A stretch of DNA of 64,000 nucleotides, taken from the NCBI GenBank assembly GCA_943789485.1, contig CALSUH010000007.1, positions 1 through 64,000 on the forward strand, in the 5' to 3' direction. Of this stretch, positions 52,648-62,922 are shown one piece after another. Under the pieces are notes generated by a model that had not been told where the DNA came from, did not search any database, and saw only the letters and a list, made by a program, of their open reading frames with translations. Source of the DNA: an uncultured Pseudomonadales bacterium. Its GTDB lineage: Bacteria > Pseudomonadota > Gammaproteobacteria > Pseudomonadales > Pseudohongiellaceae. The position numbers and the translations under genes were made by a program. How positions within the stretch are numbered: the stretch's first letter is position 1; every line of letters starts with the position of its first letter.

Positions 52648-54780
52648 ATGATAAGAACTCGATTCCGAACTTTTACAGGACCCCTCACTAGTACTGCTCT
52701 TTCCCTACTATCGCTCATCTTTACCCCTACTACGCTTCTGGCCGCCGAAGACGAAGCCGTAGCGATCTTCACTCAGGCACAAGCCACCGCCGGACAAGCA
52801 GGCTATCAGGAAAACTGCGCGTCATGCCATGGCAACACCTTGGAAGGATTTGGATTAATACCGAGCCTGACTGGCGCTGTCTTTGCTAGCCGATGGGGTA
52901 ATAAGCCTGCCGACCAATTAGCCAAAAGCGTAAACCGCATGCCGCCAGGGGCCGAAGGCAGTCTCGATCCCTCGGAATACACACAGATTCTCGCCTATGT
53001 CTTAGAGCACAATGGCATGCATGCCGGTGCTGCGGCGTTGCCGACTGGAATCGAGGCCCTCGCCGCGTTAACCATTCCAGCTTCCGAACTAAACAATGCC
53101 GGCGCGGCGTCATCGGCACCGCTTTTGTATAACAGCGATGGGCCACTAGTCAGCTCCAGTCGTTTGGAGTCGCTTACAGCCGTTACCGACGACATGCTAT
53201 TAAATCCTCCAGCGGATGACTGGCTGAACTGGCGCCGCACTCGCGACGCCTTCGGTCATAGTACGCTGAATCAAATAGACAAAGAAAATGTCGAAGACCT
53301 GCAACTCGCCTGGAGTTGGTCTTTGCCCCAAGGCGAAAACATGATGACACCCATCGTGCATGACGGTGTCATGTTCGCGTATAGCTATGGTGATGTGCTG
53401 CAGGCCATGGACGCAGCCACTGGTGAATTGTTATGGAGTTTTCAACGGCCACTTGAAGGCGGAAAGTCTCCCGGCATGAAGAAGGGCGCTGCCATCTATG
53501 ATGACAAGATCGTCATCGCGACTTCCGACATCCACCTAATTGCCATCGAAGCGAAAACAGGCAAGATTGCCTGGGACCACAAGGTAGACGGCGGCGGCGA
53601 AGATAGCTTCCTGTTTCGCAGTGCCCCGCTTATTGCCAATGGCAAAGCGATCATCGGGCTCACTGGTCGCACCGCCGTTGAAGGCGGCGACTTCATCTTT
53701 GCACTAGACATGGACACCGGCGAAGAAGTTTGGCGTTTTTATACAATCGCTAGACCCGACGAGCCCGGTGGGCATACCTGGAACGGACTACCACTAGAGG
53801 AACGTAATGGCGGATCTATCTGGATACCGGGCAGCTTCGATGCTGACCTGAATTTGGTTTACTTCGGGCCCGCCCCCACTTACGACACAAATCCACTCCG
53901 CACACCGCACCCAGACCCAAACATGACGCGCGATGCACTCTATACCAATAGCACGGTGGCTTTGCATGCAGACACCGGCGAGTTAGCCTGGCACTACCAA
54001 CATATTTCAAATGACCAACTCGATCACGACTGGGCTTTCGAGCGACAGATCATGGATTTGCGCATCAAGGGAGTAAATCGCAAGGCCGTGGTAACCGGCG
54101 GCAAGCTAGCGATTTTTGAGGCACTCGATGCCGCCACAGGTGAATACCTGTTCTCGTTCGATCTGGATATGCAAAATGTTGTAACAGAGATTGACACCCG
54201 AACCGGCCGAAAAACAATAAGCCCTGCTGCCATACCGGAATTAGATCAGGTCATCAGTCAGTATTCGATGCCCGGCATCTGCCCCGACTGGTTAGGTGCA
54301 AGAAACATGCAGAGCACAGCCTATAATCCAAACACCAAGATGTTGTATATCCCGATATCGGACACCTGTTTGGATGACAACAGCGGCGAGCGCTGGCAAA
54401 AATATCCAGATGATGCAACGAAGGGTAGCTGGGGCATCATCAAAGCGGTCAACCTTGAGACGCAGGAAGTCGTCTGGGAACAACGCCAAAGTGGCCCGCA
54501 GGCTAGCGCTAACATGACGACCGACTCGGGCCTACTTTTTATTGGCTCAGTGGATAGATGGTTTAAAGCGCTAGATCAGGACAACGGTGAGCTGCTGTGG
54601 GAGCGCAGGTTAGACAATGCCCTAAACTCCTACCCCGTTACCTACCGAGTAGATGGTAAGCAGTATGTAGCTGTAGCGACGAACAGCGGCGGCATTCACA
54701 CGCGAACGATGAAAGGTGCAGCAGGGATTACCCTACCGGTGGCCGGAGCCACAATGTGGGTCTTTGCCCTGCCCGATTAA
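52648..54780 (+). CDS. PQQ-dependent dehydrogenase with N-terminal cytochrome c domain
   Basis: 710 residues with a signal peptide ending LLAAED. Residues about 45-130 form a cytochrome c domain: heme site CASCH (Cys57, Cys60, His61) and axial Met98 in NRMPPG. The rest is an eight-bladed PQQ propeller with the AMDAATGELLWSFQ and ALDMDTGEEVWRFY type tryptophan-docking repeats and DWLNWRRTRDAFGHSTLNQI at its start. Typical quinohaemoprotein alcohol dehydrogenases carry the cytochrome at the C-terminus; here it is N-terminal. Periplasmic oxidation of an alcohol or related substrate with electrons leaving through the heme is likely. The next gene encodes an ACHEGNY-family protein. Confidence 0.88.
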   Translation: MIRTRFRTFTGPLTSTALSLLSLIFTPTTLLAAEDEAVAIFTQAQATAGQAGYQENCASCHGNTLEGFGLIPSLTGAVFASRWGNKPADQLAKSVNRMPPGAEGSLDPSEYTQILAYVLEHNGMHAGAAALPTGIEALAALTIPASELNNAGAASSAPLLYNSDGPLVSSSRLESLTAVTDDMLLNPPADDWLNWRRTRDAFGHSTLNQIDKENVEDLQLAWSWSLPQGENMMTPIVHDGVMFAYSYGDVLQAMDAATGELLWSFQRPLEGGKSPGMKKGAAIYDDKIVIATSDIHLIAIEAKTGKIAWDHKVDGGGEDSFLFRSAPLIANGKAIIGLTGRTAVEGGDFIFALDMDTGEEVWRFYTIARPDEPGGHTWNGLPLEERNGGSIWIPGSFDADLNLVYFGPAPTYDTNPLRTPHPDPNMTRDALYTNSTVALHADTGELAWHYQHISNDQLDHDWAFERQIMDLRIKGVNRKAVVTGGKLAIFEALDAATGEYLFSFDLDMQNVVTEIDTRTGRKTISPAAIPELDQVISQYSMPGICPDWLGARNMQSTAYNPNTKMLYIPISDTCLDDNSGERWQKYPDDATKGSWGIIKAVNLETQEVVWEQRQSGPQASANMTTDSGLLFIGSVDRWFKALDQDNGELLWERRLDNALNSYPVTYRVDGKQYVAVATNSGGIHTRTMKGAAGITLPVAGATMWVFALPD

Positions 54781-54809
54781 TTAGCTTTAATGAAGAATTA
54801 GGATTTGTA

Positions 54810-55838
54810 ATGCGGTTAAGAGAATTTTTGCCAATTGCCGCGCTATCTTGCGCGCTGTTTAGCGATATTGAATTAGCAGCACAGGAATGGGCAGTCCCTA
54901 GAACAGAAGCTGGACAGCCAGACTTTCAGGGTTATTGGATTAACAACAAGAACATCGTGTTCGAAAGGCCGGTAGCCTTAGGCGCGAAGCGTTTCTATAC
55001 AAAGGAAGAAGCACAGGCGCTAATAGATACCGCTGTTGAGCAACAGCGCGTCAGAATCTTGCCTGCCGATCCAGACCGCCCCGCACCGCCTGCAGGGGAA
55101 TTCATTAGTAATGTAGCCGACGCGAACTTTAATCCTGAATTGCACACACAACAAGCAATCGTGAACGGCGAGTATCGTACTTCGATAGTCATCGACCCTC
55201 CGAACGGTCGCATCGCCTATCGCGAAGGCGCGACGGATATACATGGGCAGCGACTGGCCGAAGGCTTCGGGCAGTTCGATGGGCCGGAATCGAGAACTGC
55301 TAACGAACGCTGCTTGAATTTTCCCGGCCAGTTACCACTAGTCGTCCAGATCCCACCAGAGGACAGCAAGACACTACAGATTCTACAAACCGCGGACTAT
55401 GTGCTTCTAAATGCAGAATACAACACCGGCATTAGAGCCATTCCTCTAGGCCAGACGGAGCGCAAGATTACCTGGCCACAATGGATGGGCACATCGACCG
55501 CAAGATGGGAAGGCGACAACCTCGTTGTACACACGAAAAATTTTAGATCAGAACAATCCCACCGAAGAATCCTTACCTCAGATGAGTTAGAGGTCACGGA
55601 AGTTTATACCTTGGTCTCTGAAAATGAATTGCTGTATCGATTTACTTATACAGACCCAGTTACTCTAGCGCAGCCTTTTACTGGAGAGGTACCGCTTGCT
55701 CGAATGGAGCAAGGGCAGATGATTTATGAATCTGCTTGTCATGAAGGGAATTATTCAATTACTGGTGTATTGGCTGGGGCTAGAAGACAGGAAGCTGATG
55801 CCGCTGCACTTCAAAAGCCTTCACTCGATTCGAAATAA
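54810..55838 (+). CDS. secreted ERC/ACHEGNY-family protein, copy 1
   Basis: 342 residues from the ATG at 54810 with AGGA upstream. Signal peptide ends ELAAQ. Shares with the genes at 59059 and 61918: WAVPRTEAGQPDFQGYW near the mature start, SIVIDPPNGRI, ANERCLNFPGQ, YVLLNAEYNTGIRAIPL, STARWEGDNLVVHTKNF and a C-terminal ESACHEGNY...GVLAGARR. The mature chain holds only two cysteines, in ERC and ACHEGNY, as in both paralogues, suggesting a conserved disulfide or metal site. No function is known to me. It lies 29 bp after a PQQ dehydrogenase and is probably co-transcribed with it. Confidence 0.78.
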   Translation: MRLREFLPIAALSCALFSDIELAAQEWAVPRTEAGQPDFQGYWINNKNIVFERPVALGAKRFYTKEEAQALIDTAVEQQRVRILPADPDRPAPPAGEFISNVADANFNPELHTQQAIVNGEYRTSIVIDPPNGRIAYREGATDIHGQRLAEGFGQFDGPESRTANERCLNFPGQLPLVVQIPPEDSKTLQILQTADYVLLNAEYNTGIRAIPLGQTERKITWPQWMGTSTARWEGDNLVVHTKNFRSEQSHRRILTSDELEVTEVYTLVSENELLYRFTYTDPVTLAQPFTGEVPLARMEQGQMIYESACHEGNYSITGVLAGARRQEADAAALQKPSLDSK

Positions 55839-58005: not shown

Positions 58006-58797
58006 TCAAACAGGCTTCCTTGCTAAGAACGCATAACCAAAAACACCGAACTCTCTCGCGTTGGACTCTCCGGATGCGCCTTCAAACGTATCAATGCCTG
58101 GGCCAATCTGTACGTCCACAAATCCCGCGTCAGTCAAGATCTTCTCCCAGCCTGCACACGGCAGGCCACCGGCGATTCAAGCGGTCCAGAGATCGATATT
58201 CTCAATCGCCGCCTGAGGAACGGGTTTATTATTGGCAATATCCGCAAACTGTAAATAGCCTCCAGGCTTAAGAATGCGATAGATTTCTGCCATGGTCTTT
58301 TCCTTATCGGAACACAGATTGATTACGCCATTGCTAATTGCGACATCAGCCCAAGCGTCCTCTACCGGCAGCTTTTCAAGCAAGCCATCGCGAAACTCGA
58401 TATTGCTCAACCCCAACTCATTAGCTAAGGCACGCGACTTACTCAGCATCTCTTCGGTCATATCGACGCCGACTACTTCACCCTCATCGCCAACAAGAGC
58501 TGAAGCTACGAAACAATCGAACCCAGCACCGCAGCCCAGATCTATTACTTTCTCCCCAAGCTGCAAGTTGCGCAGTGAGAATGGGTTCGCCACGCCTGCG
58601 AAAGACGCCACCGCATGATCTGGAATCTGTGAGGTGATGCCTTCATCATATTTTAAGCGCTGTGTTAGCGTGCGCCCTGTATGGAAATGAAATTCCTGCT
58701 CAGGGTTAGTAGCGACATCGCGATATTTTAGTTTGACCTGATCTCGCAGGGCTTGGGCATCGACTACAGGTTTGGCAGAGGAAGGATTTGTGCTCAT
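58006..58797 (-). CDS. SAM-dependent methyltransferase, probable selenoprotein (in-frame UGA = Sec207)
   Basis: 263 residues if UGA at 58177-58179 is read as selenocysteine; otherwise translation stops after 206. The start is the ATG at 58797 (GGAG upstream). Class I methyltransferase: DLGCGAGFD (86-94), DMTEEML, SNGVINLCSDK, RILKPGGYLQFAD. It resembles ArsM-type enzymes, in which DLW-x-x-C-IAG carries a thiol; here the reading is DLWTA-UGA-IAGGLPCAGW. The frame then continues for 56 normal codons (GFVDVQIGPGIDTFEG, FGVFGYAFLARKPV) to a stop. A hairpin GCCUGC-CGUGU-GCAGGC starts 10 bases after the UGA, with GU in the loop, as in bacterial SECIS elements. A nonsense mutation is the alternative. 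Confidence 0.72.
58150..58166 (-). promoter_or_regulatory. SECIS-like hairpin after the in-frame UGA
   Basis: On the minus strand the stem GCCTGC / GCAGGC with a 5-base loop CGTGT lies 11-27 bases after the UGA codon; CCGG-TG and TG-GG can extend it with a bulge. The loop G and U fall 18-19 bases after UGA, close to their place in the E. coli fdhF element. It lies inside coding sequence, as bacterial SECIS elements do. Confidence 0.55.
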
Positions 58798-59058: not shown

Positions 59059-60021
59059 ATGCTGAAACAACGATCGAACCTTGTTGTTACTACTCTACTG
59101 GCAGTATTTCTTGTGCCTCAGCTGGGGCTATCCCAGCCCTACGACACACGTGTTTACACAGTAGCCACGACTCCGTGGGGGCATCCTGATTTTCAAGGTG
59201 TATGGGATCGTCGCACCATCACTCCTCTAGAAAGGCCTGAACGACTCGCGGGCAAAGCTTTTCTGACAGCCGAAGAAATAATCGCCTACGAACAAGCAAG
59301 CGCTGCTCGGCCCGATGGCAGACCATTGGATGCCCGCCGAGCAGGAATCTCAGTGCATGATCCGCAAGATTTGGACTATGGTTCAACAGTTCTTGCCACC
59401 GGACAAACCTCTTTAATTGTCGACCCGCCAGATGGGCGCATTCCCGCTTACACTCAAGCTGCCGATGAGCGCGCAGCTATCGCGGCAAAACTACGTGAGA
59501 GCAGGGGTTCTGCCGACAGCTGGACTGATAGGAGTTTGAATGAGCGCTGCCTCACCTGGGGAATGCCAAACGGCATGCTTCCACAAGCGTACAACAACAA
59601 TATTCAAATAATTCAGACTCCCAATGAAGTGATGATACTCACTGAAATGGTGCACGACGCTCGCATAATCCCCCTCGATGGCCGCCCCCACCTACCTAAA
59701 AACATTACTCAATGGCATGGCGATGCTCGGGGTCACTGGGAGGGTGAAACATTAGTAATAGAGACGACAAACTTCTCTGCAAAATCTAGCTTTCGTCGCT
59801 CAAGTTCAAACCTACAATTGGAAGAGCGCTATACAAGAACCGACGAAGGTATGTTGCAATACGAATTTACTGTCACTGATGACACTACTTGGGAGCGGCC
59901 CTGGTCGGTGTCATTTCCAATGGTTAAAAGCGGCGAGTCTCTCTACGAATTTGCCTGCCATGAAGGAAATTACGGATTGAAAAATATTTTGCGAGCAGCC
60001 CGACACCTAGAAAAACAATAA
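59059..60021 (+). CDS. secreted ERC/ACHEGNY-family protein, copy 2
   Basis: 320 residues, signal peptide ending LGLSQ. It follows copies 1 and 3 closely: TPWGHPDFQGVWDRRTIT, SLIVDPPDGRIP, NERCLTWGMPNG, NNIQIIQTPNEVMILTEMVH, DARGHWEGETLVIETTNF and EFACHEGNYGLKNILRAAR. Only two cysteines, in ERC and ACHEGNY. The PQQ dehydrogenase gene starts 18 bp later on the same strand, so the two are probably translated from one messenger. Ribosome binding site GAGGTAAATA. Function unknown; periplasmic partner or maturation factor of the PQQ enzyme is a reasonable guess. Confidence 0.78.
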   Translation: MLKQRSNLVVTTLLAVFLVPQLGLSQPYDTRVYTVATTPWGHPDFQGVWDRRTITPLERPERLAGKAFLTAEEIIAYEQASAARPDGRPLDARRAGISVHDPQDLDYGSTVLATGQTSLIVDPPDGRIPAYTQAADERAAIAAKLRESRGSADSWTDRSLNERCLTWGMPNGMLPQAYNNNIQIIQTPNEVMILTEMVHDARIIPLDGRPHLPKNITQWHGDARGHWEGETLVIETTNFSAKSSFRRSSSNLQLEERYTRTDEGMLQYEFTVTDDTTWERPWSVSFPMVKSGESLYEFACHEGNYGLKNILRAARHLEKQ

Positions 60022-60039: not shown

Positions 60040-61806
60040 ATGAAAAACCAAGTTTTAATAATTCCAAAATGCATTCTTTGCTTCTTTTCATTGATAATGT
60101 TGAGTTCGGCCTCAGCGCAATCCGACACAGGCAACTGGCCTAGCCAAAATTTAAATATCGAAAACAGCCGTTACTCCACACTCGATCAAATCAACACCAG
60201 CAATGTTAATCAGCTAAATATGCTCTGGTCTTTTGAACCCGGACTTAGAGATGACATTGCTCAAGTAACCCCCCTGGTTGTGGATGGAGTGATGTATCTT
60301 CACTCTCGAGCCACGATGTATGCCTTGGATGCTACGACCGGTGAGGAGTTGTGGCGGCGCACTCTCGATTCAGGTCCTGCCAACGGTCCCGTGCGAGGGT
60401 CAACCTATGCCGAAGGCCGAGTCTACGCTTATAGAGGTGCGGATTTGTATGCCTTCGATGCAGAAACCGGCGCGGCAGTAGCAAGTTTTGGTGACTCAGG
60501 GTTTCTCAAAGTAGTGGCGCAGGGCCTGCATCATCAGTATCCAGATACGTATCCGACGGATATCGATCCGATTACAATTGGTTATCGCTTAACTACCCCA
60601 CCTACTTTCCATGACGGCATCATTTATGTCGCGGCAGCTCTTTCTGAGGGGCATATTCCTGGCGGTCTGGTGATTGCAATTGATGCAACTACTGGAGCGA
60701 TTCAGTGGGTATTCAATACCATTCCACAGACCCCTAGAGATTCCGGCTGGGAATTAGCGCAAGAAAGCTGGGGAACTGGTGCCCGCGCAGGTGGCGGGGT
60801 GTGGACTCCACCGGCGATAGATGCGCAGCTGCGCATGGTCTATGTCAATGCTGGCAACCCTTCGCCGGACTATGATGGCTCCGCTCGAGTGGGAGCGAAT
60901 CTGTTTTCAAATAGCACTATTGCCATCGACATGGACACTGGAAAATTGCGTTGGCACTATCAGGCTGTCCATCATGACCTGTGGGATTGGGACCATGTTA
61001 CCGGGCCCCTACTTTTTGATGTCGCCACCGCTAATGGCGAGCTTATAAAAGGTGTCGCTGCAGCTGGTAAGAATTGCCTGTTCTATATGTGGGACCGTGC
61101 TACGGGAAAACCTGTTCACGCCATGGTAGAAACGATAGTGCCCACACAAACTGATGTTCCTGGTGAAGTGGTTTATCCCACTCAACCAATTCCCTACACA
61201 GCCAGAGGTGTTCCAATGGATCCTCTGTGTGCAACTTACATTGAATTCGATGATCCGGAATTAGCCGCACGCAGCAAGCAACTGTATACGCCCTACTCAA
61301 CCACTGAGCCTTTTATTCTTCCGCACGGCGGCTCCAGTTTCGGTTCAGCATCGTTTAGCCCCCGCACTGAATTGATCTACGTTACAGGAAAGAATGGCGC
61401 GATTACCCTCTTAGTTGAACCTGTAGGCAATAGCTTAACCCCGGGGCCAGACAGCCGTGGTCATACAGAAAACTTTTCCGATTTGGACCGCATTTCAGAA
61501 AATTATACGCCCTTACTAACAGTCTCGGCTTATAGCCCCGTCACTGGCGAACAAACTTGGCAGCGTGAATTGCCGGCGGTCTCCTCAATCGGCGCCAGCG
61601 GTAATATGGTGACTGCGGGTGATCTGCTATTTCAAGGCATAGAAGATGGCAGTTTTTACGCTCTACATGCACTTACGGGTGAGACCTTGTATCAGTTTGA
61701 AGCACCACGCACCATTCGAGCAAGCCCACTCACGTATGACGTGAATGGCAAACAATACGTTAGTGTGGTTGCTACCAATACGGTCATTACCCTCGCGCTG
61801 CCCTGA
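60040..61806 (+). CDS. PQQ-dependent dehydrogenase, single-domain
   Basis: 588 residues with a signal peptide ending SASAQS. An eight-bladed PQQ propeller begins GNWPSQNLNIENSRYSTLDQ and contains YALDATTGEELWRR, YAFDAETGAAVASFG, AIDMDTGKLRWHYQAVHHDLWDWD, a stretch that resembles the active-site region of the methanol/ethanol dehydrogenase family, and the closing YQFEAPRTIRASPLTYDVNGKQYVSV. No cytochrome c motif, unlike the PQQ enzyme at 52648. Electrons must pass to a separate acceptor. Flanked by ACHEGNY-family copies 2 (18 bp upstream) and 3 (about 110 bp downstream). Confidence 0.9.
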   Translation: MKNQVLIIPKCILCFFSLIMLSSASAQSDTGNWPSQNLNIENSRYSTLDQINTSNVNQLNMLWSFEPGLRDDIAQVTPLVVDGVMYLHSRATMYALDATTGEELWRRTLDSGPANGPVRGSTYAEGRVYAYRGADLYAFDAETGAAVASFGDSGFLKVVAQGLHHQYPDTYPTDIDPITIGYRLTTPPTFHDGIIYVAAALSEGHIPGGLVIAIDATTGAIQWVFNTIPQTPRDSGWELAQESWGTGARAGGGVWTPPAIDAQLRMVYVNAGNPSPDYDGSARVGANLFSNSTIAIDMDTGKLRWHYQAVHHDLWDWDHVTGPLLFDVATANGELIKGVAAAGKNCLFYMWDRATGKPVHAMVETIVPTQTDVPGEVVYPTQPIPYTARGVPMDPLCATYIEFDDPELAARSKQLYTPYSTTEPFILPHGGSSFGSASFSPRTELIYVTGKNGAITLLVEPVGNSLTPGPDSRGHTENFSDLDRISENYTPLLTVSAYSPVTGEQTWQRELPAVSSIGASGNMVTAGDLLFQGIEDGSFYALHALTGETLYQFEAPRTIRASPLTYDVNGKQYVSVVATNTVITLALP

Positions 61807-61917: not shown

Positions 61918-62922
61918 TTGAAAACTCAACTCAAAAAGTTGTTGCCTACGCTGTTTGCAACACTGGTTATTTCAGCTTCGACAGCGCAAGACAGCTGGCA
62001 AGTTCCGCGGATAGAAACAGGCGCTCCCGATCTGCAAGGTACTTGGACATCGGCCAGCATTACCACGCTTGAACGCGATCCAGAATTAGGAGAAAAATTG
62101 GTCGTAACGGCTGAAGAAGCGTTAAGGATGGAGCAGACGTCAGCTTTCAATTTGCTCTCGGTATTAGACGATGTGCCTAGCGATCCGAATCGTACCGCAC
62201 CTACGGACGGGGATGCAGACGCTGGTTACAACGCATTCTGGATAGACCCCGGTAAGCGAATAGCCCGCATCGGCAAAGAATACCGAACTTCATTTATTAT
62301 AGACCCAGAAAACGGACAAATTCCTTACACTGAATCCTCTGGCCGCGCGTTCTTTGATTATCGGCAAAACAGTGGCTTTGATGGTCCAGAGCAACGCCCC
62401 CTGGGTGAGCGTTGCATGGTGGGCTTTGGGTCAAGTGCAGGGCCACCCATGCTGCCTGTGCTATATAACAACCATTATCAGATTGTTCAGAATGAAAACT
62501 ATGTAATGATCTTAGTTGAAATGAATCATGATGCGCGGATTGTTAGGTTGGATTCCGAACATCAAGGGGGTAATTTCAAACCCTGGCTAGGTGACTCCAT
62601 TGGCTTTTGGGACGAAGATACTTTGGTGGTGGAAACAGTGAATTTTCATCCTCAACAAAGTTTTCGCTTTGCTATAAAACACACGCTATATTTGCCTCAA
62701 ACAGCTAAAGTTATTGAACGGTTTACTCGCACAGCAGAAAATGAAATTCTCTACGAATTTACCATCGAGGACGAACAAGCATACTCGCAACCATGGACAG
62801 CGCAAATCCCGCTGCGGCCTGCAGAAGGACAACTCTATGAATATGCCTGCCATGAGGGAAACTATGCATTACCAGGAATCCTAGCAGGCGCTCGTAGAGT
62901 CGAGTTAGAAGATTCAAATTAA
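61918..62922 (+). CDS. secreted ERC/ACHEGNY-family protein, copy 3
   Basis: 334 residues from a TTG with AAAGGGG at good spacing; no ATG is available before the signal peptide, which ends SASTAQ. Family landmarks: WQVPRIETGAPDLQGTW, SFIIDPENGQIPY, LGERCMVGFG, YNNHYQIVQNENYVMILVEM, NHDARIVRL, DSIGFWDEDTLVVETVNF and YEYACHEGNYALPGILAGARR. Two cysteines in the mature chain, at the same two motifs as copies 1 and 2. It lies between the PQQ dehydrogenase and the Gfo/Idh/MocA oxidoreductase, all on one strand. Confidence 0.78.
   Translation: MKTQLKKLLPTLFATLVISASTAQDSWQVPRIETGAPDLQGTWTSASITTLERDPELGEKLVVTAEEALRMEQTSAFNLLSVLDDVPSDPNRTAPTDGDADAGYNAFWIDPGKRIARIGKEYRTSFIIDPENGQIPYTESSGRAFFDYRQNSGFDGPEQRPLGERCMVGFGSSAGPPMLPVLYNNHYQIVQNENYVMILVEMNHDARIVRLDSEHQGGNFKPWLGDSIGFWDEDTLVVETVNFHPQQSFRFAIKHTLYLPQTAKVIERFTRTAENEILYEFTIEDEQAYSQPWTAQIPLRPAEGQLYEYACHEGNYALPGILAGARRVELEDSN

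Follow-up and report, generated by a model that had tools for sequence, protein, structure and literature searches.

An in-frame UGA in a gene for an ArsM-like methyltransferase of an uncultured Pseudomonadales bacterium (58179-58177 of the window, that is, of the whole 64,000-nucleotide stretch of DNA that was analysed) is almost certainly decoded as selenocysteine (Sec) 207 by SelB and tRNA-Sec, acting at the downstream hairpin, as judged by sequence comparison. As the best explanation of the whole, we favor with moderate confidence a Sec-dependent selenoprotein whose arsenite site has been dismantled and which acts on reduced sulfur. The gene and its parts are as follows.

58006..58797, minus strand: coding sequence of the predicted Sec-containing ArsM-like methyltransferase, 263 aa, one UGA read through, stop codon TGA at 58008-58006; Pfam Methyltransf_31, 110 bits
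58804..58807, minus strand: probable ribosome-binding site GGAG, 6 nt upstream of the ATG at 58797, assigned from the sequence
58516..58548, minus strand: VIDLGCGAGFD, which we take to be the SAM-binding motif; contains invariant positions in the alignment
58315..58335, minus strand: SNGVINL, with Gly157 in place of the second arsenic-binding ArsM Cys in the alignment
58177..58179, minus strand: in-frame UGA, predicted Sec207, in the alignment column of the third ArsM cysteine
58149..58167, minus strand: bSECIS-like hairpin with a 7-bp stem and the loop CGUGU, from the comparison of UGA genes
58009..58176, minus strand: 56 codons downstream of the UGA, encoding the C-terminal portion of the methyltransferase fold, with signs of purifying selection

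Two ATG codons, at 58797 and 58809, are candidate starts, and the former was preferred because of the GGAG at 58807-58804.

Decoding of the UGA

The first-pass annotation described the reading frame as running on for 56 codons past the UGA and completing the C-terminus of the methyltransferase. At this base composition, 56 open codons would follow the UGA with a chance of ~0.07, and the open stretch taken alone is weak evidence for readthrough. The tail was compared with that of L048, the closest relative (an uncultured Pseudomonadales bacterium; 79% identity). Identical residues amounted to 47 of 56 after the UGA and 159 of 206 before it, and the tail showed a pN of 0.075 and a pS of 0.711. 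In all seven pairs compared (7/7), pN was lower than pS after the UGA and conservation was no lower than before the UGA. These results indicate purifying selection on the tail, and the described extension is borne out by its conservation.

Genome contigs were scanned for relatives, and the best 80 loci were kept. In the homologue alignment that had been suggested as a check, the column of residue 207 held UGA at 26 loci, Cys at 54, and other residues at 0; two of the UGA loci, L062 and L070, have one additional TAA or TAG within the translated stretch. The window gene thus has an in-frame UGA where homologues hold Cys, which is the pattern of bacterial selenoproteins. The column also held UGA in 11 of the 13 NF041537 matches in 251 Chloroflexota genomes (2 of these 11 already counted) and, among 294 Planctomycetota genomes, in 12 of another 13 methyltransferase matches. 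UGA was found at this column in 49 genes read, the window gene included, over several phyla. Two related Chloroflexota methyltransferases, L151 (TGT) and L153 (TGA), form a natural Sec/Cys pair.

Closer to the window gene, L019 from a different family of the same order is a UGA form with 68% identity to the window protein. A scan of 293 genomes from the order (E ≤ 1e-20) showed a single in-frame TGA only in L019 and the window genome, and a scan of 398 Pseudomonadota genomes (E ≤ 1e-40) only in the latter. The Sec form is rare in Pseudomonadota. Since no match to the window gene was obtained in two genomes of its own genus, the gene appears to be patchy. A tree was built by a quick method from 49 rows out of 85, consisting of the type with Gly at the second ArsM cysteine (Gly type) and eight others, with the short rows L071 and L086 omitted. 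It required five changes between Sec and Cys, compared with 16.5 in shuffles, and the window gene clustered with L048 and L019.

The genome that contains the window (3.67 Mb, 84% complete) was searched for selA, selB, selC, and selD, as had been recommended, and all four genes, the set that marks bacterial selenoprotein synthesis, were found: tRNA-Sec (selC) scored 66.9 bits against a cut-off of 47, and SelA, SelB, and SelD each exceeded the curated cut-off. The SelD match (L016) lies within an open frame of 758 aa, and SelD may therefore be fused to another domain. SelB scored above the cut-off in 24 of 27 UGA genomes versus 3 of 15 Cys genomes (p 1.4e-5), and at E ≤ 1e-60 it was detected in 4 of the 15 Cys genomes. 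The UGA genomes without SelB (L056, L086, L115) are all MAG records.

The stem-loop with GU in the loop that had been placed 11-27 nt after the UGA was confirmed, but its extent was corrected to 10-28 nt. The window hairpin, GGCCUGC-CGUGU-GCAGGCU, has 7 bp, an MFE of -14.6 kcal/mol, a distance of 16 nt from the UGA to the apical loop, and G at loop position 2. All these values lie within the bSECIS criteria in the accessible part of PMC13188914 (16-37 nt from the UGA to the apical loop, G in the first two loop positions, a stem of 4-16 bp, and MFE ≤ -7.5 kcal/mol). The fold of the window sequence alone was unremarkable, being no better than shuffles over three stretches (z -0.16, -0.43, and -0.23), and single-sequence folding was rejected as proof of a SECIS because z was near zero.

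Support for the hairpin came from comparison. In figures that are favored by the derivation of the hairpin model from the same UGA sequences and that exclude 12 Planctomycetota UGA genes fetched later, standard pairs accounted for 97.3% at the hairpin with 26 double changes (26 of 28 UGA rows), compared with at most 45.1% in slid controls; the covariation score was 0.453, compared with at most 0.085 in slid versions; and all seven pairs formed in 30 of 37 UGA genes versus 0 of 56 Cys genes (Fisher p 5e-18), the position of the second ArsM cysteine being Gly in 14 of the latter and Cys in 42. One of five covariation measures, the number of pairs changed on both sides, gave 3 versus 2.1 expected, and 74 of 500 shuffles were as high. 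The comparison indicates that the downstream hairpin is conserved with covariation. Taken together, the sel genes, the UGA/Cys column, the covarying hairpin, and the co-occurrence with SelB argue strongly for the selenocysteine that the first-pass annotation had proposed.

Fold and arsenic site

The AlphaFold2 model of the window protein (pLDDT 94.9) retrieved ArsM structures first in a PDB search, with 4fr0 at a TM of 0.68 by query length, which points to an ArsM fold. NCBIfam matches all stayed below the cut-off: ArsM_AhpD_UU (NF041537) with 222.9 against 510, PRK11873 (NF008823) with 217.4 against 263, ArsM_DUF2284_UU (NF041536) with 204.7 against 575, and MTase_UXPK_star (NF047649) with 198.5 against 460. 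From the sequence and the model, we assign the protein to the class I SAM methyltransferases, with one domain and the ArsM fold, and its NF008823 score places it outside the arsenite methyltransferases as delimited by that cut-off.

In the alignment to CmArsM and CrArsM, Sec207 corresponded to Cys224, Gly157 to Cys174, and Val69 to Cys72 (CmArsM numbering, in which the arsenic cysteines are presumably C72, C174, and C224). The alignment agrees with two earlier observations, namely that the UGA occupies the place of the ArsM cysteine before IAG and that the other ArsM cysteine position is Gly in SNGVINL. Of the three arsenic-binding cysteines of ArsM/AS3MT, only one ligand is thus retained, as the predicted Sec, the others being Val69 and Gly157; the statement that this is not a classic arsenite methyltransferase holds.

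The same changes were found in the relatives. At the second cysteine, all 26 Sec forms among the best 80 loci have Gly, whereas the Cys forms have Gly at 12 loci and Cys at 42. The 21 Sec forms from the Chloroflexota and Planctomycetota scans all have Gly at this position as well. Since Gly is present in all Sec forms, Sec is confined to the Gly-type branch among the sequences examined. The column of Cys72 held Val, Thr, Ile, or Met in 23 of the 26 Sec forms, and the other three (L071, L086, and L115) are too short to reach it. The arsenite site thus appears from the alignment to be dismantled in the window protein, and Sec would be the only conserved chalcogen of the Gly-type branch among the sequences examined.

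Cys162 (INLC) and Cys213 (PCAGW) were considered as additional ligands and rejected because they are not universal. PCAGW is absent in eight Sec forms (L062-L066 and L068-L070), five of which are also without the cysteine of INLC; neither is present in the Cys forms L057, L059, and L061. PCAGW overlaps the hairpin, and its conservation may therefore be explained by the RNA.

Gene neighborhoods and the substrate

Sulfur genes are fused to, or stand beside, a number of Gly-type methyltransferases. The Sec form L096 is fused to MddA, a methanethiol S-methyltransferase (348.8 bits against a cut-off of 270), and in L093 MddA is located immediately upstream of a Cys form on the same strand. TusA sulfur-carrier domains are fused to the Sec form L204 (36.7 bits) and the Cys form L067 (29.5 bits; cut-off 28.6), and a DsrE gene is next in each on the same strand. 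L060 contains TusA, DsrE, and the Sec-methyltransferase in a row on one strand, and DsrE and the methyltransferase form such rows in L019/L131, L072, L202, and L203, DsrE ending 10 bp ahead of the methyltransferase in L072. TusA is downstream of the methyltransferase on the same strand in L069. In L052, the Sec-methyltransferase stands between an ArsR/rhodanese regulator and a metallo-beta-lactamase/rhodanese protein, all on one strand; by our own reading the latter may be of the persulfide-dioxygenase kind (Pfam assigned the domains, and NCBIfam matches were far under the cut-off). OsmC adjoins the methyltransferase in L066, L073, and L100. Eleven plasmid records had a match, and the five that were opened all carry Gly-type Cys forms, with OsmC beside three and an AhpD-type (carboxymuconolactone-decarboxylase) gene beside two, these in haloarchaea. 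The fifth, the Chelatococcus plasmid copy (L148), has an annotated sigma-70/zf-HC2/cupin set alongside.

We counted matches to sulfur queries (TusA, DsrE, rhodanese, OsmC, MddA, and others) in the flanks of, or fused to, the methyltransferases of the best 80 loci. Matches were found at 17 of 38 Gly-type versus 1 of 42 Cys174-type loci (p 4e-6), a comparison that is biased in favor since the neighbor kinds were picked after viewing the Gly-type loci and drawn from that side only, in which related loci are not independent and the Cys174-type loci had more flanking DNA. When the five query-supplying loci were removed, the count was 12 of 33 versus 1 of 42 (p 1e-4). The Cys174-type flanks contain, by reading of the sequence, a recurring ArsR-like cluster in seven loci, as well as other recurring kinds. 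ArsR-type regulators adjoin both types, the rhodanese-fused ones being beside the Gly-type L052 and L061.

The sulfur queries gave no match within the 64-kb window or in the flanks of L048, and mddA gave no match in the window's own genome, which carries two DsrE genes on a different contig. MddA scored above the cut-off in 6 of 43 genomes; it was therefore rejected as a general genomic partner and is regarded as a clue and no rule. Fusion to MddA was likewise rejected as a common arrangement, as only L096 itself was found among 294 Planctomycetota genomes (at most four candidates scored per genome). LuxR-HTH/alpha-beta-hydrolase regulators of one kind adjoin both the Cys-form methyltransferase and an mddA located elsewhere in an Anaerolineae genome (L067 3765-4949 and L132 132-1256), and a regulator with an alpha/beta-hydrolase domain adjoins the methyltransferase in L051 as in L067.

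A search for a conserved gene neighborhood among the closest relatives of the window gene found none. Four neighbors in the window were scanned with Pfam, which identified one M90 peptidase and one PQQ dehydrogenase and left two without a Pfam family. Five frames in this region (52648-54780, 54756-55838, 59059-60021, 60040-61806, and 61918-62922) represent two paralogues alternating with three other paralogues of 320-360 aa; 60040-61806, of the two-member set, is the PQQ-type dehydrogenase, and 59059-60021, of the three-member set, has no Pfam family.

By analogy with the relatives, the most likely substrate is reduced sulfur (sulfide, persulfide, or a small thiol), a proposal to which we give an even chance with its delivery and product steps included. 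Sulfane sulfur would come from a carrier such as TusA, DsrE, or a rhodanese, and the selenolate of Sec207 would hold or activate it beside the methyl group of SAM. The methyl group would then move to the sulfur, and methanethiol or an S-methyl thiol would be released, to which MddA may add a second methyl in some organisms to give dimethylsulfide. The enzyme would serve to detoxify sulfide or persulfide. More tentatively, TusA, DsrE, or rhodanese might load Sec207 as a selenenyl-sulfide anion that is methylated by SAM and leaves as methanethiol (with MddA, as dimethylsulfide), and the catalogued bacterial arsenite methyltransferase selenoproteins might then be largely misnamed sulfur enzymes.

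Alternatively, the selenoprotein could methylate a metalloid or metal-bound substrate (As, Sb, Te, or Hg-thiol), with Sec as a metal ligand together with cellular thiols. This would be consistent with ArsM structures as the top fold and sequence matches, with the name arsenite methyltransferase given by NCBI to Sec fusions of the superfamily, and with the metal genes near some relatives. L110, a Planctomycetota contig, contains MerR, MerC, a thioredoxin-like gene, and the Sec-methyltransferase in a cluster that reaches 1.6 kb upstream, a mer-like cluster containing a selenoprotein gene. L128 is a Gly-type Cys paralogue with a C-terminal MerC domain (Pfam), a similar sequence being present in L129, and merB (organomercurial lyase; L150 8338-8883) is located 2.6 kb from a haloarchaeal Cys form with OsmC, on the opposite strand. 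However, the window protein lacks two of the three ligands for arsenite, whereas arsenite is reported to be bound by three Cys in human AS3MT (PMC3877260, accessible part); the NF008823 score is under the cut-off; and sulfur genes flank the Gly type and scarcely the classical type, given the biased choice of kinds. We therefore consider a metal(loid) substrate unlikely. Mercury itself was rejected as the substrate, since the MerC contexts, though genuine, are few in number, and Hg(II) is chemically an unlikely acceptor for a methyl cation from SAM. By eye, MerC-like tails are also present in the Gly-type Cys paralogues L024-L026, and the MerC-fused copies in L128 and L129 have a sigma-factor-like gene and another Gly-type methyltransferase nearby.

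It is equally improbable, in our judgment, that the selenoprotein methylates selenide or another small nucleophile and that the sulfur genes merely share its redox surroundings: chalcogen chemistry and the OsmC (three copies) and AhpD-type (two copies) genes beside some of the five opened plasmid Cys forms are compatible with this, but the direct fusions to TusA and MddA point to sulfur. A true stop in a truncated gene or an assembly error, with the tail as a relic, is hardly credible, because the unremarkable single-sequence fold and the chance of 56 open codons are outweighed by the same UGA in the 49 genes, the purifying selection on the tail, the covariation of the hairpin, and the co-occurrence of SelB with UGA forms.

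Comparison with known systems

The first-pass annotation regarded the protein as a probable new selenoprotein. Since Sec is already catalogued in this superfamily, this is too strong at the family level. In the accessible parts of the sources, PMC13188914 lists a Sec-containing arsenite methyltransferase with the motif UxxG, referring to Fomenko 2007, PMC2398784 gives eight such sequences from ocean metagenomes with the motif not given, and PMC9312934 includes the protein in its list. NCBIfam has three Sec fusion models in the same superfamily, NF041537 (ArsM/AhpD), NF041536 (ArsM/DUF2284), and NF047649 (MTase/UXPK-star), and the Sec fusion families are attributed to Haft and Tolstoy 2025 in the accessible part of PMC13188914. 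Within the literature searched, the replacement of the second ArsM cysteine by Gly and the loss of the first in the Sec forms, and the sulfur-gene neighborhood of the subfamily, appear to be new. Many prokaryotic selenoproteins are known from sequence alone, and those of known function are mostly oxidoreductases (PMC2398784, accessible part); a conserved Sec in a methyltransferase is therefore unusual.

Action on reduced sulfur would be a concrete and testable function for selenoproteins that are named after arsenic and, if true, would link selenium to the production of methanethiol and dimethylsulfide. The replacement of Cys by Gly in SN-x-V-I-N-L would serve as a sequence rule that separates such proteins from true arsenic methyltransferases. 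Among the matches listed in our literature search (titles and abstract starts, with few subscription journals covered), none joined selenoproteins or arsenite methyltransferases with methanethiol, S-methylation, TusA, or DsrE.

The S-methyltransferases of H2S and methanethiol described in the accessible part of PMC12904073 are MddA, MddH, MddM1, and MddM2, of which MddM1 is termed UbiG-family and MddH and MddM2 UbiE-family; that part makes no mention of selenocysteine, ArsM, or arsenite. What these enzymes would share with the window type is the reaction proposed from gene linkage in relatives, the linkage to MddA being seen in two loci. MddA is a membrane protein unrelated to the window protein, and its model NF045656 was absent from the best 25 of 42 NCBIfam matches of the latter; MddH, MddM1, and MddM2 were compared by their descriptions.

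Among the selenoproteins, the catalogued Sec arsenite methyltransferase (PRK11873/NF008823) is likewise of the ArsM type, and the UIAG of the window protein fits its UxxG motif in the accessible part of the catalogue. The window protein differs from the NF008823 group in its lower score and possibly in having Gly at the position of the second arsenic Cys. The N-terminal methyltransferase parts of NF041537, NF041536, and NF047649 are among the best matches of the window protein. By name these are two-part proteins, with two or three Sec according to the accessible part of PMC13188914, whereas the window protein has one domain, one Sec, and scores far under the cut-offs. Compared with ArsM/AS3MT (PDB 4fr0, 6cx6, 5evj, and 8xt7), the window protein is without two of the three arsenic cysteines and far below the 377-387 residues of the algal chains, but it has the same predicted fold and the third ligand position, which would be occupied by Sec207.
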